Below are positions 4,950 to 51,506 of a DNA stretch of 64,000 nt, piece by piece. The notes beneath the pieces are model-generated. The model was not told where the DNA came from. It was given only the letters and a program-made list of their open reading frames with translations, and made no database searches. The position numbers were made by a program, and so were the translations under genes. The stretch's first letter is position 1. Every line of letters starts with the position of its first letter. Source of the DNA: Isoetes taiwanensis (Eukaryota; Streptophyta; Lycopodiopsida; Isoetales; Isoetaceae); the NCBI GenBank assembly GCA_021234155.1, contig JAJEKV010000003.1:27015166-27079165 (forward strand), in the 5' to 3' direction.

Positions 4950-7177
4950 TTACTCTTCAAGGTGTCGTGCACATTCACGTGCAAACAGGGTATCCCCCAC
5001 CACTTTCTTCTTCCTCTTATGGCATTCTATGAAAGGAATTGGCCTAGCTATGGTGCTCCCATTGAAGTCCTTTGTTGTTGGCATGCAAGGTGCAACACCT
5101 CTTTGAACAGTAGAGGACTTCAAATTCTCTAACTTTTGGGTGAGCTCTCGAAGAAGGAAATCAACTTCGCGAATGATGTGAGGGTTGCTACTTAATGTAT
5201 CCCTTATGTTATGAAGGCTAGCATCTATACTCTCCAACATATCTCTACGTGTAGGGTCTACAAAGCACTTACCAACATGTGGCTCCTTCTTGACATCAAT
5301 GAGGCTTGTTGAGGTCAAACTAGAAAGCACAACGTCATCGCTACACTCATCCACCTCATAATCCTCTGCAATAGATCTCAAGTTTTCCAAACCACCAGCT
5401 TGGGAACCGTAAAGAGTTCCACACTCTCAATATGTCTTCATCCCTATAACTGCCCATCATTTGAATCACTTTAATTTGATGCTTGCACATGTTACCCTTC
5501 ATACCCCATGGACAATCGCAGCAAGCCCAATTCTCATTTGCCACAACTACCATGTAAGGAAGGGCCTCTCTATTCTCATCCCAAGCATCCATGCTTTGGC
5601 TCCAAACTTCAGCCCTTCCTTGTTGGTAGTCTAGCCACCTCACTGCTGCATCAGGAATCTTTTTTGCTCCAATGATTGCTGTCTCGATAACCTGTTCCTG
5701 TCTGCGGTTGATCTTAAAACCATAGTCTTTCTTGAACCTATCAAAGGATATATGCGTCTCCATTATGCATGTCAGCATGTAAAGCAACCAATCAATCCTG
5801 CGTCCTCTCAATGAATGCTTGGAGAGACCAAGCCTCCTCTTCATAGTGGCATGATATGACTCTATGCTTGCATTTGTCTCTTGATTTGCATGGGGATACA
5901 TCCGAGTAGCAACAATCCAGGAAGTAATGTTCTTTGTCCACACCTTGCTCATGTATTTCACAACTTTCTTGTAGACCTTGTGCCTTTCCTTGAACTCTTC
6001 CAAGCGTCTTAATCCCTCTTCCTTACATGAGTCTATGTAGTCTTGCCCATATCTACCATCCCCATCAACATGAATACCATACATGATGTCTCCTAATTCC
6101 TTGAACATTTGGGCTCTGCGCTTCTTATCTTTAACCCGCTTCACCAACATCTTCAACCAGTTTCATCTCACATGCCACAAGCACAATTGGATACGTAACC
6201 CAGGCCAAACATCCCTCAAAGCATTGATCTCGGCCTGGGCATCATCCACAATGAAGCAAGAAGGGGACCAAGTGGGATCATTATTATGGATGTGTTCCTT
6301 CATGGCCACAAGCCATGGTCGGATCTCCTCTTCCTCTTGACTAGATGTGAGAACCCAAGCTACTGGAACTCCATTCCCATGGCTGTCATAAAGCAACCAT
6401 GTGTACAAACTGTAGCAATGGTCATTGGTTTTGAAAGTGGAGTCCATGGCAATTGCCTCACCTTTTTCATGCTTCAAAAGAGTTTTCAGCTGGAATGGAG
6501 TCATTATACCCAAAGTAAAGGGCCTGCCCTCTTGATACATAAACACGCTCTCAGGATGAATAGAAACCCACATTCTGACACTTAAAGCAACATCTCGATG
6601 CAACATCCAAGTGGATCTAGCAACCTTACGAGATAAGTTGTGAAGGTCATCCATGGCAAGAAATTCATCTCTATGTCTTGGTCTATCTGGATTAATTTGC
6701 TTTTGTAAGCTCCAATGCTCTTTGTGCTTGCTCATGACCTGTTGAGCTGAATGATTTTGTTGTATCAAATCCTTAGCCCAATCCTTCTTCTACTTGGACA
6801 AACGAGGTGCATTCCTCGGGTGCTTCGATATCATACTTCGGGTGGTTCAAACAGCCTGCCACTGCAGGTTGCAAGGGCCATTGCAGGAGCGGGTACGGTG
6901 ATGATTGAGGTATCATCATTCTCCATAGCAGCGACGAGTCCATTCCTTAAGCGGGTGTGAGCAGTCCCTTTCCTTCAGTTCCAATCCATAGCATGGGCTT
7001 GGGATGCATGCCTCGGATAGCGGATGGGCCATCCGGGATGGCCGATGGATGATGCATTGGCGGGCCGATGGTGATTCGATCCATGGCCGAGCTTACCACG
7101 ATTTCCTGCCCGGGTTTACCACTTCTCGGAGTAGGAATACGACGCTCCCCAAAAATGGCCTCGGTCGAGGCTTGCAT
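4950..7177 (-). pseudogene. MULE transposase with SWIM zinc finger
   Basis: This is a Mutator-like transposase of the MULE/FAR1-like plant type. A likely first exon at 7177-7097 (MQASTEAIFGERR..., 27 codons) ends at a gtaagc donor. The main body runs from about 6860. The DDE core shows AMDSTF (first D), IVDDAQAEI (second D), LCLWHVR just after it, and an E in NASIESYH. The SWIM finger is CCDCPWGMKGNMCKH near 5480-5525. A basic tail continues to 4950 after a frameshift at about 5395. Breaks are a TGA at 6163-6165 (WHVR-stop-NWLK), a TAG near 6790 and a probable frameshift near 6800. Family knowledge: cut-and-paste transposition in the nucleus, usually with 8-9 bp target duplications. None was identified here. 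Confidence 0.85.
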
Positions 7178-17200: not shown

Positions 17201-17700
17201 TGGTGTATATATATTGGTTGTTATATTAAAAAAAAATTGCGCCCTTCGAGTCCTAATAAAGCCCTTCGATCACTTCGAGCACTAAAAATGGCATAACTGC
17301 ATGTAACAATTTTAGAAACACTTCTGCATGTAACAATTTTAGAAGAAACAGCATGTAATCCAATTACATGAATATGTAGCACAATAACAAGGGCTTTCTT
17401 TCGTATTTATATACATTTTTTCCTACGGTTTTTATATGATTTGTTGGCCGTATTGCACGAGGTCTATTAATCAGTACTTCTAGAGTGCACTCCGTATTGT
17501 ATTGTCTAAATTCCACATCCTCAATAGTTTACCCCCCTTTATTTTTATTCCTCGATTTTTTTTTTTTAATAAGCCGTGCATGCAAGCGTCGAGCTCTTTC
17601 ACTTTAGGGTTATTTTAGGGTTATCTGAAGCATTCTATGTCTCAGATTATGTAGGTGTTGCGGGTTCTGGATTTAATTTAGGGTTGTGAAGACACCGTGT

Positions 17701-17815
17701 TATGGTGAAGACAGATTCGAGGGATGCATATTTGCCCAGCAGATTCGGCCAAGGTCCATGAAATATGAAGGGGCCTTTTTTATATGGATTTTCAAGGTTT
17801 CTCTTATCATCGTGT
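17701..17815 (+). repeat. Left copy of element B target unit
   Basis: A roughly 115-bp unit starting TATGGTGAAGACAGATTCG. A second, diverged copy starts exactly at the other border of element B (30447), in the same orientation. The simplest reading is that element B inserted at a TATG on the junction of two tandem units. Confidence 0.7.
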
Positions 17816-17819
17816 TATG

Positions 17820-17844
17820 AAGCACAATTTCATTAATTATGGAC
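17820..17844 (+). repeat. Element B left terminal inverted repeat
   Basis: Starts AAGCACAATTTCATTAATTA. It matches the reverse complement of 30422-30446 with one mismatch (C/T at position 6). The transposase-like gene ends only about 60 bp inside it. Confidence 0.75.
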
Positions 17845-17904
17845 AATACCTGAATTTATGGACCATTTTTTAGTACACTTGCATGAATGACTCATTTTCA
17901 TACA

Positions 17905-20900
17905 CTAGTTGACATCCCTTGCGAGTGCTGCATATGCCTCAGCAGCATGCACGGGTATCTTAATAGTATTAGGTATCTTCTTCTTGTTTGATAGCTCCCA
18001 AGCGTAGTCGATAGTCTCCAGTTCTATGTGGTCACTTGCAGTCGTTGGCCTCCATCTCTTCTTCCAGCAATTGGCATAATTAGCTGGGTAGACTTGGTTC
18101 CTCACTGGGATTGGCTCCCACCAAGTCACAAGAATAGTCTCAAAGTTCTCCTTCTTATCATCCATTTGTGGGTCCTCAGTAGCTAGGCCCACCCAAGTTG
18201 GGCACAACACATCATCAGGGCATGCCATAATAAACATACCTTTCTTCAAATCTTTGTATGGGTTGAATTCTAATACAGGTTTGTCCTTCCAGGGGCCGAC
18301 ATAAGGAGGAGTGATAGTAGCAATTGGCTCCACCACTACTGACTACATGAGGTGGAGCTGCGCTGCCTACCCTGCAAGTCGTGGCGAGGAAGTCATTATA
18401 AGTGCCTTCGTCCACTGCTGATGTTCCCGAAGTTCTTGCAAGAGTTTCATCCAATATTCAATCGTGGGCGTGAATGCGTGCGAGTACTTGGCTGTTTACG
18501 GAGCACCCTTGTTACTAGTTGAACAAGCAACCCAATGCAATATATGCTTGTGGATCTTTGTTTGCTGACAGAGGCCAAGGTCCTTCACCAATTTCTTGGG
18601 AGGAAGCAGCTTAGGATATCCAACTGGCATCATGGGCTTCCCGTCCTCTTTTTCTTTCCACATCTTTATTCCACCAGCAGGCAATAAGTGGGTCGAGTTT
18701 TGTAATACATGACTGGCCAATCACCATTCATAGTGAATCTGAAAGTTAGAGGGGTGGTATGACCTGTCAATCTATCATCCCCATCTGGTATGTAGCCTTC
18801 TATAAAACCCTTCCAATCTGGAACTTTGTCAACAACATAGGGCACAGGTGTATTCAAGTTGCATTTGTGGAATTCATACAGTAGTTCTGGCATTGTGAGC
18901 TCCTCAGCCTTCTTTAAAGATGTAGAGAAGTTACCAAACAAGGCATCGATATCATCATGTGTATGACCGGGCATCATGAACCCTAACTCAATCTCTTCAA
19001 ACACACCAAGATATACTAGGTAAGAAAGATAGGAGAAGACATACCTATTCTTGTTCTGTCCAGATGCATTGTCCAGCTACAAATAAAGTATCTTGGGCAG
19101 AGGCTTCAATGATGATCCCTCAGCATGTGGCAAATTAGCAGGTATGCTGTTGTTGGATAGTGACAACTTTGACCCCAAGGCCGTGGTGTCTCGCAAGGAG
19201 GACACCCATTCTGGAGCAGATGATTCAGGCACTGACAGGTGGCCTCCTGCATACTCGTGCCCCATCTCTAATCTCTTCAAGATGCTATTCAAAGAACCTA
19301 CATTAGTCATCTGGCCATAAGTCCAGGGCAAAGTTTCCATGGGATCCATTTCCATGACCATGAGTCAATGCACCAGTCAATGTCGTTTTGAGCTTGTCAA
19401 GTCTCCAGAGAGACTTCACAGATTGTTGCAATTTTGGAATCATTATTTTCGCTTGATCCATTTTGTCGTGAATAATACAAAGACATTGGCCGGGATACCT
19501 GTGGGAGTATAATCTCCACGACCAGTACTGTGTGCGACACGAGGCCTGCTCCAGTCTATGCGCTCTTCTTTCATCATGCAGCATCCTCCTCTCTCCTTCA
19601 TCTTTGGTCTTCAGTAACTTTGTACTGATCACCTCACATGTATCACATTTGGAGAATGCAATTTTCTTTGCGATACTGACATCCCGGAAGCTCCGCCTCC
19701 ACGTTCTATGAAAACCTGTCGGTGATACCTTCTTGTCAGTCAATGCCACAACCTCTGCATTAACCTCTTCTAGGGGATTCACCGTTCTCCCTCACAAACA
19801 TGGAAAACACGGCCTCACATGCCAACGTTGAGGAGGGAGGCTTCAAGGTGCCACAGTTAACATGTTCGGCCTTGCGTGCACCCTCAAGAAATTGGGCCTT
19901 CCATTTCAGATACGCCGACTTTGAGATCCCGAGACCAAGGTACCACGCCCTTTCGCAAACGAGATTCCCTTGCAGCACTAGTCGTCCCACTCTTCGACCT
20001 TTTATGTTGTTGGCGAACATGTCATAAACAAAAGTAACCCTATCACTTGATTTCATGGCAAGGAATTCCTTTCGCATGTTAATAACTTGATTCGTAGAGA
20101 ACTTGATGCAACACCTATTCTTGCAACTCAAGGTCTTCCTGTAACTGAGGATAGCATTCTGAGTGGTGAGACGAGCAAGCTTTGGTGGCCTTACAACCTT
20201 CCTGGGCTGTCGGGAATGAAAAGTGTAATGTCGTTTCTCATAATTTGGGTGCTTCTGATGCCCTGAGCTCCCCGGTTGGACACTATATATCGCTTCCCTG
20301 TTGCGGTCTTTGCGGTCAATATCTTCGAGACCTTTACTCCATCACCACAGACGAGGTCATTGTTCCATCTCACGAGCATCCCCAGTTTCGGCAGCTGCAA
20401 GCAACCCTGGCAACAGATGTTCACTTCAGAAAGGGGAGGGAAACCTTGATTCTGAGATACTCCCACAAACTTGAAACCCGTGAAACCTGGTCACAAAGTC
20501 TGCATCATCGGGGCCAGTGAAAGATATGAATCCCTTTCCGGCGATAATGGAGTCACAGGAGTGCCATATCTCACAATCCTTTTCAAGAAGGGTATATCTT
20601 GTCAGCCGTTGTGTCTCCTTTCCCACCCTCGTCCATTTGTCTTTTTCTTTGGGGACGTCATTACCAGACGACTCACGAGCATCTTTACTTCTCCAGAGAA
20701 TGAATGAGCCCCTGGCTTCTGCTATTGTGTTTGCATCTGGAGTTGGCCAAGGAAGGGTATGGTGGCCTTCGAACACTTCCTCCACACCTATGCTAACTAC
20801 TCCATTCGATATTTCCTTGAAGTGGCATTGTGTCATTTGCCCCACAACTCCCTTTGCTACTAGATGTTCATTAAGGAAGAGATACACAACCTGCACAAGG

Positions 20901-21025
20901 ATTTCAGTAGTGTCAAAATTGAGTAAGGAAGACGAGAAAGCAATGCAAAGGACATGGGGGGAAGGCCATTCAATGGGTAGACGGACAATGAAATTCCTCT
21001 TGTTCTTAGATTCCCCTTGTTGCAA
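17905..21025 (-). pseudogene. Element B transposase-like protein (DUF7869-type)
   Basis: Read right to left, the decayed frames form one protein. The N-terminal region (21025-20480) has LPWPTPDANTIAEARGSFI, resembling the plant DUF8039/Tnp1-like domain. A linker follows at 20466-20191. A cysteine region (CKNRCC, 20131-19760) with VCERAWYLGLGISKS comes next. Then come FSKCDTC and IIHDKMDQAK (19782-19303). LDNASGQNKN and a MPGHTHDDIDALF block lie at 19076-18666. A C-terminal TWVG/VTWWEP segment ends at 17905. The D-containing motifs (DKMDQAK, LDNASGQNK) and GHTHDDID are those of the RNase-H-like DUF7869 family found in transposons; the name is from memory. Breaks include a TAG at 19077-19079 (CAG to TAG) and frameshifts near 20475 and 19330. 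The true start is uncertain, as the frame opens at a TTG inside a palindrome. Confidence 0.75.
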
Positions 21026-21365
21026 ATTGGGCGGCCGCCCAATTTGAACCGAATGAGGCGCTTATATGAGGTTAGTATAGATGTAGGCAGTCTCACACTG
21101 GGCACAAATAAAGGTTCTTGCTCTGAATAGGCTATGACCGCGGACAAATTGGGTGCCCGCCCAATTTGGTCGTGATTGTAGAAGAACTGTAAAGAAGGCA
21201 GAGACTCGGCGCCCGCCCAATTTAGCTGCCATAGAGAAAACACATTCGGGTGACAACTTGAGAATAGGCACAATAGGCACAACTTGAGATACAGTTTGCC
21301 CAACCGGCCAATTTCACCTATCTCGTCATCTAAACAAAGGGACAAACTGGGCGGCCGCCCAATTT
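21024..21365. repeat. Palindromic motif cluster 1 (4 copies)
   Basis: Copies lie at 21024-21045 (perfect palindrome, centre GGGCGGCCGCCC), 21146-21167, about 21207-21223 (degenerate) and 21344-21365 (GGCGGCCGCC centre). They occupy the 5' side or first intron of the transposase-like gene, facing the ParB-like gene. Confidence 0.9.
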
Positions 21366-21702
21366 GTCCCTTTGTGTAGATAAAACTGAACGAGGTATAC
21401 ACTAAAAAAACCCCTTTTGATTGAAGGGACAAGGGTTGGACTGCACACCTGAGTGGAATTATCATTAAGCTACCAAAACAAATACAATCGAGCATTGGAA
21501 GGGCCTGACTGCAGACAAGGGTGGACTTATCAGGGTAGTTCTTGGGGACAAACAAACGACCATGGAGAAAACAGCAAGCACACAATTCCTGCACACCAAT
21601 TTCAGGAAAAGGAAGGACTGCATCAAAACTTAGAGTTTATGTAAATGTGATAGTAGATGTCAAAGTCCAAACTTCAAAAATGTGACCGAACTACCACACC
21701 GG

Positions 21703-21850
21703 TGAATGATGAGGAATAAATCAACAGGCGCCATCGAAAAGCCGTGAATGAAGAGGTGCGAATGAACAGGCGTGAATGAAGAGGTGTGAATGAATAGGTG
21801 TGCTTGAAGAGGTGTGAATGAACAGCCGTGAATGAAAAGGCGTGAATGAT
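21703..21850 (+). repeat. 14-bp tandem repeat (GAATGAASAGGYGT)
   Basis: About eight clean units at 21746-21850, with degenerate units back to about 21703. It sits in the central noncoding region between the two divergent main genes of element B. Confidence 0.85.
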
Positions 21851-22029
21851 TACATCCCTTCAGATTAGTTTTGCAGCAATTACACATCGAGCTATGGCGA
21901 ATAAAACTGAGGAGCAGCACAAACCTTTGGAGATTTCGTGGCTATGAGTATGAAGCGCTGAAGATCTTTGCGTCTTGAAGAAAGATAGTAGCCAAACAGA
22001 GCAGTGCCAGAAAAACAATAGGTTTGAAG

Positions 22030-22180
22030 CGCATTTACATTTAAACACAAATTCCCCCCAAAATTTGAATGTAATTTTCCCCCTATTTTGAAAGTTAAAT
22101 GTCCCCCCTAATTTCGAAGTAATATGTCCCGCCCCGAACTTTTAAACACAACTTCCCGCCTAAAACACGTGCGCCACGTG
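22030..22180 (+). promoter_or_regulatory. C-rich 26-27 bp repeats and twin CACGTG boxes
   Basis: Five degenerate units each end in CCCCC or CCCGCC (aaatttgaatgtaattttcc and variants) and are followed by two G-box cores CACGTG at 22166-22171 and 22175-22180. G-boxes are known bZIP/bHLH sites in plants. The block lies about 470 bp upstream of the first ATG of the ParB-like gene, so promoter function is likely but inferred. A half-motif TTTGGGCGGGC is at about 22196. Confidence 0.5.
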
Positions 22181-22979
22181 CATGACTCGAATTAAATTTG
22201 GGCGGGCTTTAAATGACGGATTTGAAATTTAAAATCTCCGTGCATTTATTAATAAGGTCCACAATTAATTCCTAACACTCGAACCCATCAACGGTCCATT
22301 TTTATTTGAAAAGGCCAAACTCTCACATGCATGACACTTGTCTTTCGCTCATGAAAGGTCCATACCCCTTTAAAAGCCCTTCATTCTCCTTGACTGCAGT
22401 TTTAGAAAATTCTGTGCTTCTTTGGCGCTTTCTGGTTTGCTTAACACTGTCGCCTTCATATTTTTTACCTACGAAACTCATTCTCATCCCTATCCTGTCG
22501 CCAAGAGACTATACTCCCGAACCAGTTGCGGCCGGATCGAGCACTGGCGCCTTGTGTTTTCGGCCGCTTGTCGCCATCTGTTGGCGCCTTCCTCATTCAT
22601 TGTCCTATCGCCTGGGAACCCCTGTACACCAAGGAATCTTAGCAGTTGATGGCATCTCGCCCCACCACAGGAGGCAAAGGTAAGCTGGACTACTATCTTA
22701 ATATAAACTTGAGCGCCTGCCCATATCATAAACCTCGGGGTATCCCACTTATGCTTTGAGGAAATTGGGTTGTGGCTGACAAATTGACCTCTTCTAGATG
22801 CCTCACTGGTCCCCACAAATGCATATCTGTGTGCAGAACTTCATAGGGCACCCAATTGCTTCCCCGAGGGGCTTTCATTTTGCACAACATTGACCTTTTT
22901 CTCCAGTAGGCTACCCTTCCATCACGAGGGGTATCTTAACTATGCTCATGGGCAATAGAACGAACTTCTCCCTCATACC

Positions 22980-23405
22980 AAATTGGGCGGACGCCCAATT
23001 TACTCTTAAGGACACCACGACTTCCTTGGATAGTATACTTGGGCAGAAGTAAATTGGGCGGGCGCCCAATTTGGTGTGCATAGGGATCCGGCCAAATTGG
23101 GCGGGCGCCCAATTTGGCCTCTATGATGCAACAGTCTCTTCAGCCCCAAGTCTCACCATGAATTGAGCGGGAGTAAATTGGGCGGGCGCCCAATTTGTTG
23201 TGCGTAGGGATCCGGCCAAATTGGGCGGGTGCCCAGTTTGGCCTCTATGATGCAACCGTCTCTTCAGCCCGAAGTCTCACCATGAATTGAGCGGGAGTAA
23301 ATTGGGCGGGCGCCCAATTTGGTGTGCGTAGGGATCCGGCCAAATTGGGCGGACGCCCAATTTGGCCTCTATGATGCAACCGTCTCTTCAGCCCCAAGTC
23401 TCCCA
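22980..23405 (+). repeat. Palindromic motif cluster 2: about 7 copies, 124-bp higher-order tandem
   Basis: Motifs lie at 22980, 23051, 23094, 23175, 23218, 23299 and 23342, each 22 bp. From about 23040 the DNA is three tandem units of about 124 bp. Each holds two motifs separated by gtgtgcgtagggatccggcc and a shared spacer (ctctatgatgcaac). All are in the GGGCGGGCGCCC orientation except for point changes. The cluster lies in intron 1 of the ParB-like gene. Confidence 0.92.
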
Positions 23406-25092
23406 AGTTCTAACACTACTTTCCGATTCTGGCAGAATTATTATGGCTTGAACAAAGCGGCATCGCTTTCGGGTTCAGGTCCCGCACCCAGATTTGTAGA
23501 GGCTATAGCAAGAGAGGATGCAAGAACAGAAGAAGAGAAAGAACTATTTGCTGGCATCCAGGTAGTGCCCCATGAAGTTTTGACGGTTGCTGAGAAATGG
23601 TACTAGTGCATAGAGATAGGGAATATTCACCCTGGGTCCCAGACAAACCACCTCAAGGATCTTTTGCTTTTCTTTGGCAAGAGAGGGACATGAAAAATGA
23701 ACTCGGCGGGTATCGTCATCGACATGGAGGTCTCGCCTGAGAACAATCATGACTTCCTCATCGATGTTGAAGACACCGTAGATCGGGCTTTCGTCCGTTA
23801 TAAGGTTTCACTTTCTAGCTACGAGCCATGTATGATGAACGCAAGTATAAAGGAAAGCCCACAATCTTGCGCTCATAGAGGATGGGCACTAGACTCATAT
23901 GAAAGTTTAGAGAGCTCGGGCATCAAATCAAGAACGATATCTTGGATGGCTACTACATTTGTCGGCGGTGGATATTAGAACACAAAGCGAGCAGTCAGTG
24001 CTAATCGTTCACGGAGTATCAAGGCAAAAACTAACCTAAAGTATACGATACTAAGTGGCTTAAGTCTAGATACAAGGAGAGTGAGACATCCTGGCCTTGA
24101 GCGCCGGGCCCATGGAGACCGAGACATCGACAAAGAAGGCGAGGACACACCTCTGACTATTCCCGTAAAAGCGCCCCTAAACTTGTATTGGGTGGAGTGT
24201 CGAGAACAGCAAGGTCGCCCAATGTGAGTCTGAGAGAAGAGGAACAGTCGTCGAAGAGGAACCCTCTAAGCATACGGGGAAAACATTTAGCTGGTCCTCC
24301 CAAGAGGCGCAAGCGGGACATCTCACCACGAGCCCAAATAGTTAGGAGGGAGTCTTTATGCCTTCTTCAACCGAAGAGCGGGAGACTAGCCGGTAGATCG
24401 TGAAGTTCACTCCATCCGGTGGCGGCGTCACTGGGAGAGCGGGACATGAGTTGTCACAGGCGCCATTGCAAGCATCAAGCTAATGGGGAGAGAATCTACC
24501 CTCCGGGGATGGGCTTGAGATTGAAGTCGATGTGTTCAAGATGCATAAAGCCCGGCAAATATGACTTGTAGGGTCATAAGTCCAGAGCACTTGGACACTC
24601 TCTACGAATCGTTTATCAGCCATCGATGCACCCTCCCCGTCTTTGATGTCGTGCCGATTCGATCCACGCATGAGCGGCGAGCAATTAAGTGGAACAAGGC
24701 AGAGGACCTGCAAAATGCAGAATTTTGGATTGTAAATGGCAACCATACGACCACGGTTGCTCAACTGCTTGTCACACAAGCTTTGGCATGGCCTCCTGAA
24801 ATGAAGCACTTGGCAGAACTGATATTCTTTTTCTATGCCAAAAGGAAATGCCGAGTCCTGGCAGGAAATCTCACAGCAATCGAGTACGTTCGTGTCAGCC
24901 AAGGGAATAATGACATAACAAAGAAGACTATACACGAAGAAGTATTCTTCGAAGAAATTCAGCAGCTTCAAAACCAGTGGGCATTCTACGGGAAGCCTAA
25001 GAAGGGCAAACGCGGGCACTCCGTCGGTGGAGCTTATTCTGTGAGTGCACTACCACCATTATTTTTGACAGTTTGTGCTATCCACCAGTGCC

Positions 25093-25273
25093 AAATTGGG
25101 CGCCCGCCCAATTTCAGACTGTTGACACTCTGTTCAAATTGGGCGGCCGCCCAATTCCCTTGAACGAGTGCCAATTGGGCGCCCGCCCTATTTGGGACCC
25201 GTTCAGGGAAATTGGGCGCCCGCCCAGCTCAGCTTAGTGTCAGATGGTCTGAAATTGGGTGGGCGCCCAATTT
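25093..25273. repeat. Palindromic motif cluster 3: 5 copies inside an intron
   Basis: Copies start at about 25093, 25136, 25172, 25209 and 25252, about 40 bp apart, mostly in the reverse form (GGGCGCCCGCCC). They lie wholly inside the intron 25040-25342 of the ParB-like gene. Spacers differ between copies. Confidence 0.9.
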
Positions 25274-26359
25274 GGGACTGCTAGTGCAGGCAAATTAAGA
25301 TGATGTGTATGGGCCTTATCTAATGCCTTCTGTGTCATGCAGGATTGGAAAGCTGTCGCGCTGCAAACAATTAAAAATGCAACTATGCGTGACTACGACT
25401 ACTTCGTATATCTTGATAACGAATCGTGGTCAATGTGCACCGAAGTTGCCCAGTTATTTTACGAAGACCGGTTGAAGGATGAGAAGGGAGAAAGAATTGA
25501 AGTGAAAGATAGGCTCGGACTTTTCACCAACAATTCCTGTCGCCCATTAAAGTCCATGCATCCTCTAGATCTGAAAAGGCTGATGAAGGAGATCAAGGAT
25601 GGCACCATATTCCTGAAGGGAAGCAAGGACTATACTGGAAGACGTACCATGAAAGTCAGAGCCTTAGAGCTAAAGAAGATTGGAACAATGGAGCGGGCCC
25701 TTGTCAGATACATGAAGGAAGTGAAGAAACTTCCTTTTCAAGACATGGCTGCCTTGAGGCAAGCTCATCCCATATTCACAGAGAATCTGATGCTTATGTT
25801 CGCCAGTAGTATCAGTGGATGGGCAGAAGGACGCAAAGAGATGGAGAAGGAGCTTTCCGGAGTCCCTCTACGGCAAAGTAGACGAATATCTTCTTGGGCC
25901 AGTTGAGGAGGGTGGCAAACCGTTCAAGTGTTTCCACGTTAGTCCACTAGGTTTGTGCGTGGACGTGGTGAACACTTCTGCCCGCTTCATTGGATGTGAC
26001 TTCAGATATACAAAGAAATGGCCAAAGGAAGATTATAAAAAATTCCTTGACTAGCTTAGCACGATGACGGACCAGCAGCTTTACTGGATAGCTATATTTA
26101 TTACGCCAGACCGCCTCAATGAGTGCCTATCCGCCATGAAGACAATAGACGGTGGCAGCCGTGTTTGGGTTGGTTCCTACCAGGACCCCCGGGCCAGAAC
26201 TGCTTCTACCTCTAGAGTTCGAGAGTTGCAATGTCTTGTCCTGCTAATGTATGTTGCCAGAGACGCAGCGGCTCCGCCATCTGTACAGGAAATAAATATT
26301 TGCTTCGCCAATTCCGACCATCCTAAGCTGATCATGAGTGTGCAGCAGGTATGCATTTC

Positions 26360-26381
26360 AAATTGGGCGCCCGCCCAATTT
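26360..26381 (-). repeat. Single palindromic motif in a short intron
   Basis: A complete 22-bp motif (reverse form) fills the middle of the 70-bp intron 26350-26419, between a gtatgc donor and a ttcctacag acceptor. Confidence 0.85.
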
Positions 26382-27405
26382 TGTTGTTGACTATGAATGT
26401 TTCTTTGTTTTTCCTACAGCTTATTGGCTGTATCGTCCTTGGTGCGACAAGGGTGCAGCAGGTGGGGGAGGAGTACTCGTGCAGAATCAGTTGGAAAGTA
26501 CGACGTGCACCTATCTAGTACAGAAGTTGATGTTGGAAGGTTGCACTTTGTTCTCGACTTCTTTTCGGTGGTGCTTTTAAGCGAAGCTGCGGTGTCGCGA
26601 GGGCTATAAAACATTGTCTTTTGAGACAGACGAGAAGCTGGAAATTAAGCTTGTACAGATATTCGAGCAACTCGATGTCATGTTAGACGAGAAAAAATCA
26701 AGAGCTCGGGCACTACAAAAGATCAAAGAGGGAAAGAAGAAGGCGTCTACTTCCAAAAATGTTCCTCAGCCTCAGCTTCCTGCTCCTGAGACACCTTGTC
26801 CGTTCTCCTCTACAACCATAAACGAAGTGCAATCCATTCTGAGACAGGACAAGAGCTCGATTCAGCAAGAGCTCAAAAAGGCAGCGGCCCTTGGCTCTCA
26901 AGATTTGGAACTATTTAGGAGAAGACATCAACGCATTGGCAGGGACGGCACTGGTGAATACTCAGGACATGATTGAGGCGACCTCAAAGTTCGAGGAAGA
27001 GGTTGCTAGGGATCCCGAGTGCATGCGTTGTCATGGAAACACGGGGAAGGGGACAATCGGGGATGGAGAGGATATGGTCCCCAACACATTGAACAATCAA
27101 GATGTAGAGGAAGAGGTCGCGAACGAGTAAGACAATCGGGGTGCGGATGAGGAGAATGAGGACTGGGGTCCCGAAGATTTTAGGCAAAGAATGGAAAAGA
27201 TCAAGGAAGCAGCACAACAACCTCCGCCCCAGCATGAAGAACCCAGCAAGGATCATTCAGAAGAGGTGCCTCCAGATGAATGAGCGATTTATGATTTCAA
27301 AATATGGGAAATATGTTATGAACATTTGTAATTACTTCTTTTTCAGAAATGATAATGTTGCCCTCATTTCCTTGTCTTAAAATTCTCTAGTTTACTTTGC
27401 TAACC

Positions 27406-27539
27406 AAATTGGGCGGGCGCCCAATTTGGTTACCGTAGAAACTAAAACCTTTAATTTAATTTATTTCACGACCAATCTTGTTGCTGTTAACTTGAGACCT
27501 TCGCTATCCTCGGCCAGAAATTGGGCGGGCGCCCAATTT
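27406..27539 (+). repeat. Palindromic motifs downstream of the ParB-like gene (2 copies)
   Basis: Forward-form motifs at 27406-27427 and 27518-27539, just after the C-terminal coding end. Confidence 0.9.
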
Positions 27540-27715
27540 ACTAGCAGAGGAAACATCATCAAACGTGAAGTGAAGTGGAGGTGCAGAAACAGTGGAGATG
27601 AAAGAGCAGACCCTCAGGAATTATTCAGGTACGTTACATTATATAATATTGACTATGCTTATTACATCCTTACATCATTATTATATCCTTGTCAGGTACA
27701 GTAGTCTACAACGAT

Positions 27716-27958
27716 TCACTCGTCGTCAACGCCTGCCAAGGCGATGCCATTCAGCTCAAAGACCTGCTGATCAGGAAGCCAATACAGGTGGACCACAACA
27801 CGAGTGAGCTTCCTGCAAGCACTCGCAGGTCCATCTGCTTTGGACTGGAGCCATGGATCAAGACTAACACCATTCATATAGCACTGGTTAATATCGTTGT
27901 AGCTCAAGTAGCACTTGAAGGATCGGATGTTCTCCGGACGATCCGGCAAGGAAGCCAT
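27716..27958 (-). CDS. SLDPWL small protein, copy 1
   Basis: An 80-residue open frame. Key pattern: FKCYLSYNDINQCYMNGVSLDPWL, shown here as YNDINQCY-x-x-GVSLDPWL, then VVVHLYWLPDQQVFELN and an acidic end. It aligns with the plus-strand copy at 28599-28898 (FDDLHACGFKGISLDPWL, VTIHIVWVPEREAFEIN). Conservation of the pattern between diverged copies on opposite strands argues that it is translated. The family is not recognised. The open frame appears intact. Confidence 0.55.
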   Translation of the reverse strand: MASLPDRPENIRSFKCYLSYNDINQCYMNGVSLDPWLQSKADGPASACRKLTRVVVHLYWLPDQQVFELNGIALAGVDDE

Positions 27959-28070
27959 GAGAGATGAATGCAGTGGAGCTGCTTTTATAGTGGTGAAAAA
28001 TTATTGATGTCAATTATTGGCATACATTCTAGCGCCAGTATTGACTGTATACGGTATACCTGTATAGCCA

Positions 28071-28157
28071 CGCGAAATTGGGCCCAATTTCGCGTACCAT
28101 TCACTATGCGCATTCAAGGGGAACCATTCTAGGGCAAAGTGGGCGGGCGCCCAATTT
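28071..28157. repeat. Palindromic motifs between SLDPWL copies 1 and 2
   Basis: At 28071-28094 lies a 24-bp perfect palindrome with a shortened centre (CGCGAAATTGGG and its complement). At 28135-28157 lies a forward-form motif with AAAGT replacing AAATT. Confidence 0.85.
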
Positions 28158-28261
28158 CACGGGACATGTTGGACAAGTTGCACATATAGAAGACAAGTTG
28201 TACTAATACTTTATCTCATAGATGATTACAGTCTGATTACAACAATATGACAAGCGTTCAT

Positions 28262-28461
28262 TTAGGGAGACTCTTCTGAGTCATTTTCACCGGGCACCCC
28301 AGCGATCTTCTCTATCATGTACATTTGATGCTCTCTATTCCATATCAGATGGATGATAACATCAAAGGGATCAGGATAATGGCGAGGATTTAGAGCTCGC
28401 GGCACTGCTTGAAGTTTTCGTGATTCATCTTATCACGTTCAGGACCAGAATGAGACCACAT
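28262..28461 (-). pseudogene. SLDPWL small protein, copy 2 (frameshifted)
   Basis: It starts MWSHSGPERDKMNHENF on the minus strand. A stop/frameshift occurs near 28392. The continuing frame reads YPDPFDVIIHLIWNREHQ, then MYMIEKIAG and an acidic end (ENDSEESP). The IIHLIW-x-x-EHQMYMIEKI part matches the VTIHIVW and VVVHLYW parts of the other two copies. It is the most diverged of the three. Confidence 0.5.
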
Positions 28462-28598
28462 GGCTAGCCGAAGGCCAAATTTGATGGACAAAGTTGGTTT
28501 GAGATATATTTATACCCACTATAATTATTGATGGTATTGTACGCAAAGATTATTGGATATACATACTACTCGTATATACACCCAATAATACTGCTACA

Positions 28599-28898
28599 GT
28601 GGTCATCAATAATTCCATGGCTATAAATATAGCCGCATTCGAGGGCACAGCACAATCCTTTGCCATGTGTCGCCGTCTTCAGAGATCCCATCTTGACACC
28701 CTCACTTGCCTTATGACCTTTGACGATCTTCATGCCTGCGGCTTCAAAGGGATCTCCCTTGATCCCTGGCTATATGGTATAGCTACTGGTCGAAAGAAAG
28801 ACTCCCCCGGCGAGTATCATGTTACTATCCATATTGTGTGGGTTCCGGAGCGCGAGGCTTTTGAGATTAATAGAATCACCAATAATTACAATCTATGA
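28599..28898 (+). CDS. SLDPWL small protein, copy 3
   Basis: A 99-residue open frame, MVINNSMAINIAAFEGTAQS then FDDLHACGFKGISLDPWL and YHVTIHIVWVPEREAFEIN. It is homologous to copies 1 and 2. A second possible start (MCRRL...) lies at about 28664. No signal peptide or membrane segment. Transcribed away from copies 1 and 2. Confidence 0.55.
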   Translation: MVINNSMAINIAAFEGTAQSFAMCRRLQRSHLDTLTCLMTFDDLHACGFKGISLDPWLYGIATGRKKDSPGEYHVTIHIVWVPEREAFEINRITNNYNL

Positions 28899-29022
28899 GT
28901 CATGTATTTCATAACTTTATATGATATGACTGTGTTGTGCATCTATCAGTTGTTATCATTCAGTTGTTATCTTCGTTTCTGATCTAGTTTTTATCATTTT
29001 CCATTCGCTTGCAACTCCAAGG

Positions 29023-29500
29023 AAATTGGGCGCCCGCCCGTTTCTTTCTGGAGGTCTCGATGGAATTCCCAAGGCAAAGTGGGCGCCCGCCTAATTAAGC
29101 TGGGAAGCTTCCAAGGAGCTTTGTTCAGACAATTCCAAGGGCAAAGTGGGCGGGCGCCCAATTTGCTCTGGAGGACTGGAGGTAACTTTCATCAGATCAT
29201 CTCCAGGACAAAGTGGGCGGGCGCCCAATTTGTCGGCGTGGCATCGGGAAAGCTTTGTTCAGACAATTCCAAGAGCAAAGTGGGCGGGCGCCCAATTTGC
29301 TCTGTAGGACTGAAGGTAACTTTCATCAGATCATCTCCAGGACAAAGTGGGCGGGCGCCCAATTTGTCGGGGGTGGCCTCGAGAAAACTTTGTTCAGACA
29401 ATTCGAAGAGCAAAGTGGGCGGGCGCCCAATTTGCTCTGGAGGACTGGAGGTAACTTTCATCAGACCATCTCCTAGACAAAGTGGGCGGGCGCCCAATTT
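29023..29500 (+). repeat. Palindromic motif cluster 4: 8 copies, 67-bp period
   Basis: Motifs start at about 29023, 29075, 29143, 29210, 29277, 29344, 29412 and 29479. The last six are spaced 67-68 bp and all in forward form, with AAAGT on the left edge. Spacers alternate between two types (attccaagagc and catctccaggac), giving a 134-bp higher-order repeat. It lies downstream of the MVRTR-family gene. Confidence 0.93.
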
Positions 29501-29670
29501 CTTGGGGATAGCCTCCAGATGTTACTTTATCAATGTAGACAAGAAGCATTCTATTCATATAGGAATGTAGTACGTGGCTGGAATACATAGATAATAAAAA
29601 GAACTAAACATCATGCCTCGAAAAAGATAGTTGAACATAAACATAATAGATAATATTGTACATGGAGGTT

Positions 29671-30173
29671 TCAGTCAATGCTCAGTTCCACCGCAATTAG
29701 ATCCCCCAGATCGAACTCTGTAATGGCATCGGCTATCTGAGATCAAACCCGATCATTCAATTCGCGATCGAATGGGGGTCTTTGAGGATGAGCTTCGTTA
29801 CCAAACCCACACGCTCCCTTTTTTCCTTCTTGTAAAGCTTCTTAAATAAGGACCGGAACCTGTTGTGCAGCCAAACATCCTCCATTTTCAGCAGCCTCTT
29901 CAGAGCTTCTGCCTTGTAAATATGGCGCTTCAATGAAATCAAGCAGCCTTCCAGCTCCACCCTGCTGAGGTGATCCGGCTCATCGCCATCCTTCATCAAC
30001 TCTCCCCTACGGAGGAGCTTCCTGAGTTGGTTTCTCATTTCTTCTGTTCCATCTTGGTTTATATCGTTCTGCACCTCGACATGAAGCTGATTCACATGAG
30101 CTAATATTGGCTCGCAGATATGAGACTGCATTTCGCTCATTGTGAATCCATCGTTGCGCCTGGTTCGGACCAT
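29671..30173 (-). pseudogene. Element B accessory protein (MVRTR family)
   Basis: It opens MVRTRRNDGFTMSEMQS at 30173. The conserved block reads SLKRHIYKAEALKRLLKMED, then VW...F-x-x-L-x-KKLYKKEK and LVTKLIL. This lines up with A1 and A2 of element A (LKRCIIQGKVLKYLL; LKKYMIGEKAMRALL). Unlike A1 and A2 it has no intron at the shared phase-1 site. Near 29780 a one-base shift moves the rest into another frame (FDRELNDRV, a TGA, then AITEFDLGDLIAVELSID), ending at 29671. Length would be about 165 residues. Function unknown. The gene is the rightmost of element B, about 250 bp inside the right TIR. Confidence 0.7.
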
Positions 30174-30421
30174 TTTGACTGTCCCGACTACGAATCTACA
30201 CTATGCAGATTTGCGAATGCGGGCTACTGTGGCGAGACAACCTCTAGTCAAGGCGCTTGGGCAGAACAAAAACTCAGATGGCGCTTCTTTGGCTAAATAG
30301 ATACAAGGCCTGCCATCTCACCTACCTGCACGATTCCCGAAGTTTAGCATCATTCTAACGAATAAAACCCCTATATTCTAAAAATTCGGGTCCATTTGGG
30401 AGTCATATGGACTTGGAAAAA

Positions 30422-30446
30422 GTCCATAATTAATGAAATTATGCTT
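30422..30446 (-). repeat. Element B right terminal inverted repeat
   Basis: Ends ...ATGAAATTATGCTT and is followed by TATG. Inverted match to 17820-17844. Confidence 0.75.
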
Positions 30447-31033
30447 TATGGTGTAGACGGATTCGAGGGATGCATATTTGACCAACAAATTCAGCCAAGG
30501 TCCATGAAATGCTGTAACGTTCCTAACCGACATGCCCTTAACTAACTGAGCAAAACCGTCTAGACATTTATGAGTAGTCACTTCTACCCATTTATGCCAG
30601 TGTCTCGGGAACGCCCCACATGCACATTCAAGGTTCGAATACTCGAGTAGTCTACCATGGGCCCGTTACAGTCTCTCCCACTAGAACTATGCTCGTCCTC
30701 GAGCATCCAAAGCTATACCATGTCACAATGATTACCAAGTCTTTGCAAATTACCCATGCATATAGGCACCCATGGAGACCCGGAACTTCGAGACCTACTC
30801 AAATTACCAAGCTAAGCGTTCCTAACAGGCATGCCCTTAACCAAGCGAGCAAAGCTGTCTAGACATTTATGAGTAGTCACTTCTACCCATTTATGCCGGT
30901 GTCTCGGGAACGCCCCACAGGCACATTCAAGGTTCGAATACTCGAGCGGTCTACCATGGGCCCGTTACAAATGCAAAGGGGTCTTTTTTGTATGGATTTA
31001 CAGGGTTCCTGTTATAAGACTGATTCCGTGTGT
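30447..31033 (+). repeat. Right copy of element B target unit, split by a TRIM
   Basis: Diverged second copy of the 17701-17815 unit (TATGGTGTAGACGGATTCG...). It runs to 30512 and resumes at 30970 (aaaggggtcttttttgtatg...) after the TRIM insertion. It ends near ccgtgt at about 31033. Confidence 0.7.
30513..30969 (+). mobile_element. TRIM (miniature LTR retrotransposon), complete
   Basis: Two direct repeats of about 158 bp (30513-30670 and 30811-30969) begin TGTAACGTTCC and end CCCGTTACA, with the TG...CA ends typical of LTRs. The second copy's first bases are altered. About 140 bp of noncoding DNA lies between. A 5-bp target duplication AATGC is at 30508-30512 and 30970-30974. The LTRs are about 93-95 percent alike by eye. 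No standard primer-binding site was recognised after the first LTR. Confidence 0.85.
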
Positions 31034-49785: not shown

Positions 49786-51367
49786 TGTGACGTTCCAAGT
49801 ATTTATACGGTCTACGTATAAATATATTGACACGTCACAGTATAGATACGCCACCCTGGGGTATGATAACCTAGGGGGTTGGCCACAAGGGATTTAATTA
49901 GCTATGTTAAATTAATTATAAAGGATAATTATCTAAATACTTGCTATTAAGTCACCTAATGGTGGGAAAGCCACTTGGCATAACACGAAAGTGGTCAAAA
50001 GCATGGGGTTGCTAAACCGAGCCACCAAAGCGGCGCCACCCCATCTTACCCCATTTTCGACCCGGCCCGGCACCGAGGGGCAGCTAAAGCTCAAGGAGCG
50101 ATTCTTTGAACACCCCCAACCGCCAAGACACCCTCCGGTGTCATTTTGCCACCCGATCTGACACTATGGAAGCACCCCTTGACAACGGGTCGGCCCGAAA
50201 CTTGGTTAGTGGTAGTTTAACTTGCAAATTGTAGAATAATACTTTGGTGTTCTTCTCGACTAGTTGGTTAAGATTAACCCTTCTTTGGTAATCGGGAATA
50301 CTTTTCAATTATGATTGATGCTCTGTTATGGAATGGTCGATGTCTCTATGAGTTAGTTAGGTAGTTTCGATGCTTGAGGGGTTAAAAGGGGGTAGAGGCC
50401 TCTGAACTTGAGTATAGAATGCTCCTAGTAATTCCTTTAACACCCTACTAGTTGCGCGCACGTGTACAAGAGCCCATCGGGTCATAGGCGCTATGGTGCG
50501 GCTTAGCACCGGACAAGGGACCTGATGGTGAAGTAGGGGGTGGGGTCTTGCCACGAGCATAAAGGCTCCCGAGACTCCTACTGATGGGCTAGGCGATAGC
50601 CCGGTCCGCGAGGGGCGGGTATGGGTCCGACACTCACAGGTGCAGTGGTGTGACCCGTATGGGGCACCATGCACTTTGAGTAGATTTAGGGTGAGTAAGT
50701 TGGGTGCGGATCACGAGGGGTGCGGCGACGCCGGCACGTATTCTCTAGCTCACCCATGGAACCACTGTGATCCTGGAAGGGGACACTTCCCCGACCTGCC
50801 TCATCGGACCAGGTGTCATGATCCTGGAGTAGGCTCAAAGGGTGATACCTTGAGTCTGCGTCTCCGGAAGGCTATAGCGAAGCCATAGCGTGAATCGACC
50901 CATCTGCAAAGTGTGCACAGGAGGGGCGGATGGAGTGGACAACCCTAGCCGATGTTCTATGCCAGCCAACGCCATGCCAAGACTCGGTCTGCTGATCTCC
51001 ACGAGACCCGGTAGGTCGATTCGCTCCTCACTAGAGTCTGAGCCGGGGTAGAACCTGGGGTTTGGGTGTTTTCTTAGTTTAGATGCATATTCTTTGCCGT
51101 TGGTACTTGGATGGATGTGCCACCCCTCGTGGTGGTTGTTTATATGTGATTTATGTTGTATGCTAACCTTGTATTCATGCTTCCGCGACGTAGGAGCCCC
51201 ATTGAAGGCGTGGGCCGAATGACCCCTTCGTGTCCTTCTTTCGGGCATCATTTCATAGATGGCCCGGAATAGACGGAGGGCCATGCTCATGGCACGTTGG
51301 TTGCCATGGGACGGGAAAGTCCCCGTATGTATACGGCCGGTGGCGTATATAGTCAGGGAGCGTCACA
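49786..51367 (+). mobile_element. LTR of a retrotransposon (1.58 kb)
   Basis: Begins TGTGACGTTCC and ends GAGCGTCACA, giving the TG...CA inverted ends, and is directly followed by a primer-binding site. The open frames inside have no protein support. No second LTR or gag-pol exists in the window. About 125 bp of leader follow before other repeats take over at 51507. The length is in the Ty3/gypsy range. Confidence 0.75.
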
Positions 51368-51368
51368 G

Positions 51369-51380
51369 TGGTATCAGAGC
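51369..51380 (+). promoter_or_regulatory. Primer-binding site (initiator Met-tRNA)
   Basis: TGGTATCAGAGC, the standard plant retrotransposon primer site, one base after the LTR end. Confidence 0.85.
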
Positions 51381-51506
51381 CGTGTTTTCGGTTGCTCAAA
51401 ATCATAGCACTGGCCAAACACTAACTCGTAGTACGGTAGTTAGGAGGAGGCTAAGTTAATGTGTTTAGTCCTCTTTGATGTTTGGTTCGGTGTTAGGTTA
51501 AATTTC

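Follow-up and report, generated by a model that had tools for sequence, protein, structure and literature searches.

A 12.6-kb stretch of the genome of the lycophyte Isoetes taiwanensis is almost certainly a single DNA transposon, in which a DUF7869 transposase gene is accompanied by a large accessory gene, small candidate genes and a palindromic motif found 28 times in non-coding DNA of the element and nowhere else in the window, by which we mean the whole 64-kb stretch analysed (contig JAJEKV010000003.1, positions 27,015,166 to 27,079,165; coordinates below are those of the window). An earlier note on this DNA had proposed that these parts belong to one element with a palindromic site system of its own, and both proposals find support here. 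Our preferred reading, to which we give a little less than an even chance, is that the accessory protein would read the palindromes and counteract silencing of the element in a sequence-specific way.

The element is bounded by 25-bp inverted repeats, AAGCACAATTTCATTAATTATGGAC on the left and, after reverse complementation, AAGCATAATTTCATTAATTATGGAC on the right; they agree at 24 of 25 positions, as the note had stated, and the TATG that it took for a target duplication stands on both sides. Ten further copies with their flanks (c2 to c11) were taken from the same genome and matched to the window by alignment. The left border lies at 17820 in four of them (c2, c6, c10, and c11) and at 17812 in c7, and the right border at 30446 to 30449 in eight (c2, c3, c4, c5, c6, c7, c9, and c11); four copies reach both ends, and c8 reaches neither within the stretch read. 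Four of the five both-ended copies (window, c2, c6, c7, and c11) have an exact 4-bp duplication (TATG, ATAT, TCTC, and AAGA), that of c7 being imperfect (TAAT/TTAT). In c2, c6, and c7, and also, with deletions, in c11, the shared ends enclose the transposase gene, the large accessory gene and the region of a small gene named MVRTR in the earlier note. Differing borders, or genes that never co-occur, would have spoken against a single element; we looked for both and found neither. A chimeric element and a chance gene neighbourhood were dropped as explanations, since borders and gene order recur in the copies.

Genome searches with parts of the element gave a similar picture. With the left 90 bp as query, the best 40 of 644 candidates were all 99 to 100% identical; with the right 97 bp, the best 40 of 300 candidates included 39 besides the window at 92 to 97%. 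A 603-bp piece of the ParB-like exon of the accessory gene (see below) gave 87 to 97% identity among the best 40 of 370 first-look candidates, the window's own match excluded, and 39 additional rows that were short cross-matches among palindrome-bearing DNA. Two pairs of left and right ends occur among the matches listed, spanning 12,626 bp (window) and 12,520 bp (C1018). Eight of the 40 listed left ends, including that of the window, have a ParB-exon match 6.6 to 8.8 kb downstream, and three more have one at 16 to 29 kb; for five of the 40 listed ParB-exon copies a right end follows at 5.9 to 7.5 kb among the matches listed, and for two more at 17 to 32 kb.

Sites with no insert, a check proposed in the note, were sought with four joined flanks. 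Those of c11 align unbroken across the insertion point to three distinct loci at 66 to 70% identity, as would be expected for related sites without the insert that are too diverged to resolve the 4 bp; those of the window, c2, and c6 gave no uninterrupted match in the sequence examined. A 65-bp direct repeat (91% identity) at 17700-17764 and 30446-30510 is probably a host tandem sequence split by the insertion, because the other copies displayed have unrelated flanks, and longer ends or direct repeats as ends were dropped on the same grounds. Inverted ends, a duplication of fixed length, recurring borders and, for one of the four flanks, insert-free relatives of the target are the marks of a cut-and-paste DNA transposon, and an autonomous element of this type appears to be the best explanation.

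The gene that the note had called transposase-like belongs with the DUF7869 transposases. Pfam PF25273 matches an open reading frame (ORF) of the window itself with an expectation value (E) of 4.8e-20 (72.4 bits), and a 765-residue model joined from c2 and c10 with E 6.5e-42 (143.7 bits, cut-off 26). Judged by sequence, the minus-strand frames at 17905-20341 and 20426-20905 are one gene; the minus-strand ORF 20426-21025 was dropped as a separate gene, as it matches the transposase N terminus of the best database relative, P0001 (37% identical over the model, and 24% between its N terminus and the N-terminal exon of the window). Ten database proteins matched the model; the six with E <1e-60 include a protein of the liverwort Riccia sorocarpa, and amphioxus is represented by two, with E 1.8e-42 and 6.6e-34. 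The family has D..D..HTH(D/E)DIDA motifs, which we read as being of the kind found in DDE enzymes. The ratio of nonsynonymous to synonymous substitution rates (dN/dS), computed throughout over 11 copies including the window and amounting to 0.79 to 1.09 in four control frames, is 0.43, 0.32, and 0.29 in three stretches of the transposase; in its N-terminal exon it is 0.60 over 20426-20850 and 0.90 over 20426-21025. The window copy lacks about 85 bp at 19774 that are present in all six copies displayed (c2, c3, c6, c7, c8, and c10).

With P0001 as genome query there were 16,989 first-look candidates; the 44 that were scored gave 47 matching stretches, many of them in open frames of 750 to 1,100 amino acids. 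On these figures (some 17,000 first-look candidates, 44 scored), DUF7869 transposases have perhaps undergone a very large expansion in this genome. The name DUF7869 is absent from the papers of the open PubMed Central (PMC) set.

Where the note had counted about 29 palindromes, we find 28 sites with at most three arm mismatches in the element and none in shuffled sequences. The pattern AAATTGGGCG-NN-CGCCCAATTT (full 22-bp form, AAATTGGGCGNNCGCCCAATTT) occurs exactly at 2,720 places in the genome, and at none when read backwards. The four other both-ended copies contain 15 to 19 palindromes, and the fetched flanks of these copies (c2, c6, c7, and c11) contain none. According to our gene models all 28 sites are non-coding, 13 in introns 1 to 3 of the accessory gene and 15 between genes; some mechanical ORFs cross palindromes and were not taken as genes. 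The sites are spread over 8.5 kb, with none in the 3.2 kb adjoining the left end. Across the ten copies, identity to the window is 88.8% in the arms, 72.8% in the centres, and 78.6% in the 20-bp flanks, values in which blastn alignment may favour conserved cores, and the arms exceed the flanks at 26 of the 28 sites (exceptions, 21024 and 29076).

Hairpin-forming repeats might be multiplied by slippage and tandem duplication in non-coding DNA with no reader involved, and several sites do lie in tandem arrays of 124 bp and 67/135 bp. However, passive repeats of this kind would not be expected to keep their arms better than their flanks at nearly all sites, nor to leave the centre free while the arms are fixed at thousands of places; moreover, in all eight copies read the intron 3 site is found at the same position, exact in five of them. 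We consider this explanation improbable, and read the palindromes as a putative element-specific recognition system.

A second palindrome family was found beside distant DUF7869 genes. The 4 kb read upstream of a divergent DUF7869 gene (C1080:6277052-6280030; 41% identical to P0001) contain, in L045:187-1800, about 16 copies of ACTTCCAAC-N4-GTTGGAAGT, seven of them exact, 3.3 to 4.9 kb from the transposase, and the core of the first palindrome is absent from this stretch. This second motif is likewise 22 bp long with a free centre, and occurs at 587 places in the genome (control, 0). Seven listed second-family sites cluster 3.4 to 5.1 kb upstream of another transposase, C279:448565-451501; the other of the two DUF7869 matches on contigs covered by this listing, at C279:93179, has no second-family site nearby among the matches listed. 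Palindrome codes thus seem to accompany some DUF7869 genes. Confinement to the element, conservation and this other palindrome all support the note's notion of an own site system, and we infer that a protein of the element may read it. A host factor, for example a cell-cycle or growth regulator, could instead use the palindromes to drive transcription or replication of the element, and the arm does bring to mind plant promoter elements rich in TTGGGC/GGCGGG. But the palindrome of the distant family is unrelated, so that one host factor would not explain both, and no site lies outside the element in the window; we regard a host reader as very improbable.

The ParB-like gene of the note is a real ORF, but it is one exon of a larger gene rather than a whole gene: translation of other copies reveals a plus-strand gene of four exons with GT-AG borders, oriented divergently to the transposase gene. 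Joining exons 1 and 2 of c9 to exons 3 and 4 of c2 gives a protein model of 1,183 residues. Changes in exon 1 among copies are mostly in third positions, with small deletions in c2 and c11. The dN/dS in exon 3 is 0.15 at 25343-25879, the lowest of the stretches tested, and 0.43 at 25920-26327; exon 2 has 0.29 at 24594-25040 and, in the best frames, 0.73 at 23700-23960 and 0.54 at 24295-24545, and exon 4 has 0.47 at 26614-26940. Two resemblances seen by eye are motif-level leads: VISPEHLDTLY..FWIVNGNHTTTVAQLL is similar to the ParB/Srx core, and LVQKLMLEGCTVLDFFSGGAFSRAAV to the S-adenosylmethionine (SAM) motif of adenine methyltransferases. A DPPY-type catalytic motif was not seen by eye in the accessory protein. 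The window copy is probably not coding-competent, because its exon 2 is frame-broken and both 58 bp of exon 3 (at 26328) and the 85 bp or so of the transposase are missing. Similar frame breaks are seen at several points in many copies, and methylated sites may have caused assembly errors there; the published assembly is Nanopore-based and Illumina-polished (PMC8566536).

Exon 2 of c9 opens with ATGGCGCGAACAAAGCAGACTGCTCGA, that is, MARTKQTAR, identical in nine of nine residues to the beginning of histone H3 (ARTKQTARVPGPAPR when written without the start Met); the pieces TTGGKG and PAPR recall, less closely, STGGKAPR of the H3 tail. The exact coding DNA for MARTKQTAR occurs at 44 places in the genome (reversed control, 0), namely 0.9 to 1.1 kb upstream of 12 of the 40 listed ParB-exon copies and 3.8 to 6.1 kb downstream of 10 of the 40 listed left ends, among others, and at none of 15 full-length host H3 genes, one of which was read and uses different codons. 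The region was compared in 19 copies, 17 of which could be aligned (c4 and L031 lack it). The peptide is intact in c8, c9, and L038, the last with a synonymous change; L035, L036, and L033 have one residue changed or a stop, and the other 11 are deleted, frame-shifted or rearranged there. Such a copy of the H3 tail near the start of the large protein suggests a possible route to escape host gene silencing. At the start of exon 2, several copies (e.g., window 23443-23475) share similar odd replacements, such as CTTGAACAAAGCGGC for GCGAACAAAGCAGAC; methylated CHG sites may have given rise to systematic Nanopore errors here.

A separate family in the genome consists of frames of up to 567 amino acids with a histone H3 core that is 72 to 87% identical from residue 3-37 to about 135 (Pfam Histone, E 8.1e-41); 135 of 150 scored matches, among 9,033 first-look candidates, are of this kind. 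In L043:345-2045 (G000:C974:15273500-15277500) and L044:57-1190 (C919:2261500-2265500) the H3 core ends a long frame with a foreign N terminus, and a second frame, of 386 to 499 amino acids, comes after it. The family has the appearance of a mobile element, present in high copy number, with a histone H3 core as cargo. Window positions 51303-51500 are 90% identical to L043 7-207, and a piece of this repeat may lie in the window.

In the mechanism we propose, the transposase would cut the element at its ends, and the accessory protein would bind the palindromes, presumably as a dimer because the arms are two-fold symmetric around a free centre. Through the palindromes it would keep the chromatin of the element open, and, as these are family specific, it would protect only its own family. 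The H3-like stretch would bind or tie up the host's readers and modifiers of H3 tails, and the C terminus, with its methyltransferase-like motif, might act on DNA or merely bind it. We prefer anti-silencing because the anatomy, with a selected second protein, a family-specific non-coding motif, tandem expansion and a second motif, is that of the VANC/VANDAL system: none of the 28 sites is in a coding exon, arrays are present, and one other family has a different motif. VANDALs are Mutator-like elements (MULEs) with long target duplications, in contrast to the DUF7869 transposase and 4-bp duplications found here, and on the joined transposase model Pfam finds only DUF7869, and no MULE transposase domain, at E up to 1. 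Two reports on Arabidopsis describe VANDALs as DNA transposons with a second, non-transposase protein whose short non-coding target motifs often form tandem repeats and differ between related families (PMC5735166; PMC10398659); one of these proteins, VANC21, binds the motif YAGTATTAY within introns and in intergenic and terminal non-coding DNA, and it removes methylation (PMC5735166). Unlike VANC, the present accessory protein is without a Pfam domain, and its putative target motif is a 22-bp palindrome.

Several findings weigh against the accessory protein as an anti-silencing reader. (i) For the whole accessory model Pfam gives no family, VANC or other, at E up to 1, and a search of 5.8 billion proteins gave no homologue at E 0.001 (1,183 amino acids) or E 1 (415 amino acids). 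ParB, methyltransferase, and VANC domains were recognised neither by Pfam and PHROGs nor by PDB sequence search and phage tblastn. The sole computed hint of a methyltransferase, a match of VLDFFSGGAFSRAAV to the RsrI methylase, is weak (E 0.61), as are matches to DUF4729 (E 0.12) and phrog_21182 (E 0.15), whose functions are unknown; AlphaFold models of exon 3 and of the ParB-like part have a mean predicted local distance difference test (pLDDT) score of 37 each and are unusable. In view of motif resemblance without profile support, we have not adopted ParB or methyltransferase as a designation for the large protein. (ii) By comparison of dN/dS, one half-exon shows the strongest constraint, and elsewhere the accessory gene (0.29 to 0.73) is like the transposase or weaker. 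(iii) The 4-kb stretch at C1080 gave no sign of a relative of the accessory protein, and the palindromes there may therefore have a different reader. (iv) The H3-like peptide is not intact in 14 of the 17 aligned copies. (v) Exon 1 joins exon 2 in frame, with MASRPTTGGKGI(N)-MARTKQTAR-VPGPAPR as a possible product, and therefore the H3-like stretch would begin at residue 13 rather than form a free N terminus; a free ARTKQTAR end requires a start in exon 2, and exon 1 may place 12 residues ahead of it.

The C1080 result bears most directly on the main rival, in which the transposase itself would bind the palindromes, as dispersed accessory sites for assembly of the transposition complex or for autoregulation of transcription, and the large protein would have another role. 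Repeated motifs bound by the transposase are known from En/Spm and Ac, and a palindrome cluster next to a DUF7869 gene with no accessory gene in the 4 kb read fits this pattern. Yet the sites extend over 8.5 kb, many of them in introns of another gene, and avoid the 3.2 kb beside the left end; we judge this rival unlikely, though it deserves serious weight. As for the H3-like stretch, it may go back to a histone H3 gene from which the end of an exon was captured long ago, or may be read as H3-like by coincidence, and have no mimic function. An internal position, if translation begins in exon 1, and the loss of the peptide from most copies favour this view, for which we see a real possibility, if well short of an even chance. 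On the other side, nine consecutive residues including the start Met are hardly chance, the exact DNA occurs at 44 places with codons unlike those of the host H3 gene read, and L038 carries a synonymous change inside the stretch. Returning to anti-silencing by the accessory protein, its boldest form is a sequence-addressed histone decoy: the body of the protein would bind its own palindromes, and its ARTKQTAR start would stud the element with H3 tails on which silencing or activating enzymes act instead of on nucleosomes. Each DUF7869 family would then have its own code, a second independent origin of VANC-like anti-silencing, in lycophytes. We offer this form as a speculation that is rather unlikely to hold in full.

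Table 1. Features of the transposon in window coordinates, with the observations on which they are based
Feature	Position	Strand	Basis
Left target-site duplication, TATG	17816-17819		c2, c6, and c11 have their own exact 4-bp duplications
Left terminal inverted repeat, 25 bp	17820-17844	+	Start common to c2, c6, c10, and c11; alignment of c7 begins 8 bp outside it
DUF7869 transposase gene, several exons or broken frames (17905-18336, 18666-19004, 19077-19782, 19760-20341, 20426 to about 20905)	17905-20905	-	Pfam PF25273, relatives, dN/dS
Four palindromes upstream of transposase gene	21024-21365		Site search
Accessory gene, exon 1 (MASRPTTGGK), then donor GTAAG	22649-22679	+	Conserved among copies
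Seven palindromes in intron 1, six of them in 124-bp tandem array	22980-23363		Site search
Accessory gene, exon 2: H3-like MARTKQTAR start (decayed at 23443 in window), ParB-like motif region from about 24500	23436-25040	+	Copy translations, dN/dS
Five palindromes in intron 2	25093-25273		Site search
Accessory gene, exon 3: first half is the most constrained stretch tested	25343-26348	+	dN/dS
Accessory gene, intron 3, 71 bp	26349-26419	+	Intron read in 8 of 19 copies
One palindrome in intron 3	26360-26381		Exact in 5 copies; a single change each in c9 and c11; c4 lacks two bases (8 of 19 copies read)
Accessory gene, exon 4: motif like SAM-binding motif of adenine DNA methyltransferases, then acidic tail	26420-27283	+	Copy translations
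Two palindromes, intergenic	27406-27539		Site search
SLDPWL-1, 80 amino acids	27716-27958	-	dN/dS 0.50
One palindrome, intergenic	28136-28157		Site search
SLDPWL-2, possible gene, broken in window	28262-28460	-	dN/dS 0.31; another frame 0.45; stops in both
SLDPWL-3	28647-28898	+	dN/dS 0.78, weak
Eight palindromes, intergenic, most in 67/135-bp tandem array	29023-29500		Site search
MVRTR gene, 138 amino acids	29757-30173	-	dN/dS 0.48
Right terminal inverted repeat, 25 bp	30422-30446	-	Eight copies end within 3 bp
Right target-site duplication, TATG	30447-30450		Flank reading

The small genes of the note fared unequally (Table 1). The frames of the MVRTR gene and of SLDPWL-1 look constrained; of the two remaining members of the proposed SLDPWL trio, SLDPWL-2 is ambiguous and SLDPWL-3 weak. 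For MVRTR, Pfam gave no family above its cut-off and three weak matches (E 0.03 to 0.04). Outside the element, minus-strand frames at 4950-6789 belong to another transposase-like gene, which we read as MULE-like and whose match to the SWIM zinc finger is weak (E 0.0016, below the cut-off), and an unbroken frame of 618 amino acids at 57593-59449, with four MA3 domains (E 8.2e-108), is probably an ordinary host gene.

Other known transposons share single traits with the element. CACTA elements such as En/Spm have CACTA ends and 3-bp duplications, which are absent here; their own protein TnpA, which attaches to repeated motifs and has a link to the control of methylation, offers a likeness to the system proposed. 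A Transposase_23 match in the relative P0001 was weak and below the cut-off (E 0.023). Sola2 elements have 4-bp target duplications, short inverted repeats and a large transposase, as found here, and are reported to have captured Fanzor as a passenger gene (PMC3627910); their reported duplications are AT-rich (AWWT etc.), whereas of those found here TATG and ATAT are AT-rich and TCTC and AAGA less so. Chromatin-active cargo has precedents among DNA transposons, namely VANDAL and, in one report, TET/JBP-dioxygenase elements of fungi and SET-domain elements (PMC12730594). The fungal TET/JBP elements resemble the present one in carrying their own chromatin- or DNA-modifying gene, but they have transposases of other superfamilies and an oxidase of 5-methylcytosine, and the part of that report at hand mentions no palindromic site system (PMC12730594).

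In the open PMC set, on the topics of ParB and eukaryotic transposons, of Isoetes and lycophyte transposons, and of histone mimics, we found no DUF7869 element with palindromic sites and an H3-tail protein among the matches listed, nor, in titles or abstract openings of the matches listed, a transposon protein with an H3 tail sequence. A protein of this kind would make an unusual example of a selfish element mimicking a histone. Should a protein of the element read the palindromes, VANC-like, family-coded recognition would exist in a plant lineage and a type of transposon far from the VANDALs of Arabidopsis. At least two palindrome codes would then be present in one genome, and the co-evolution of reader and sites would therefore be testable.

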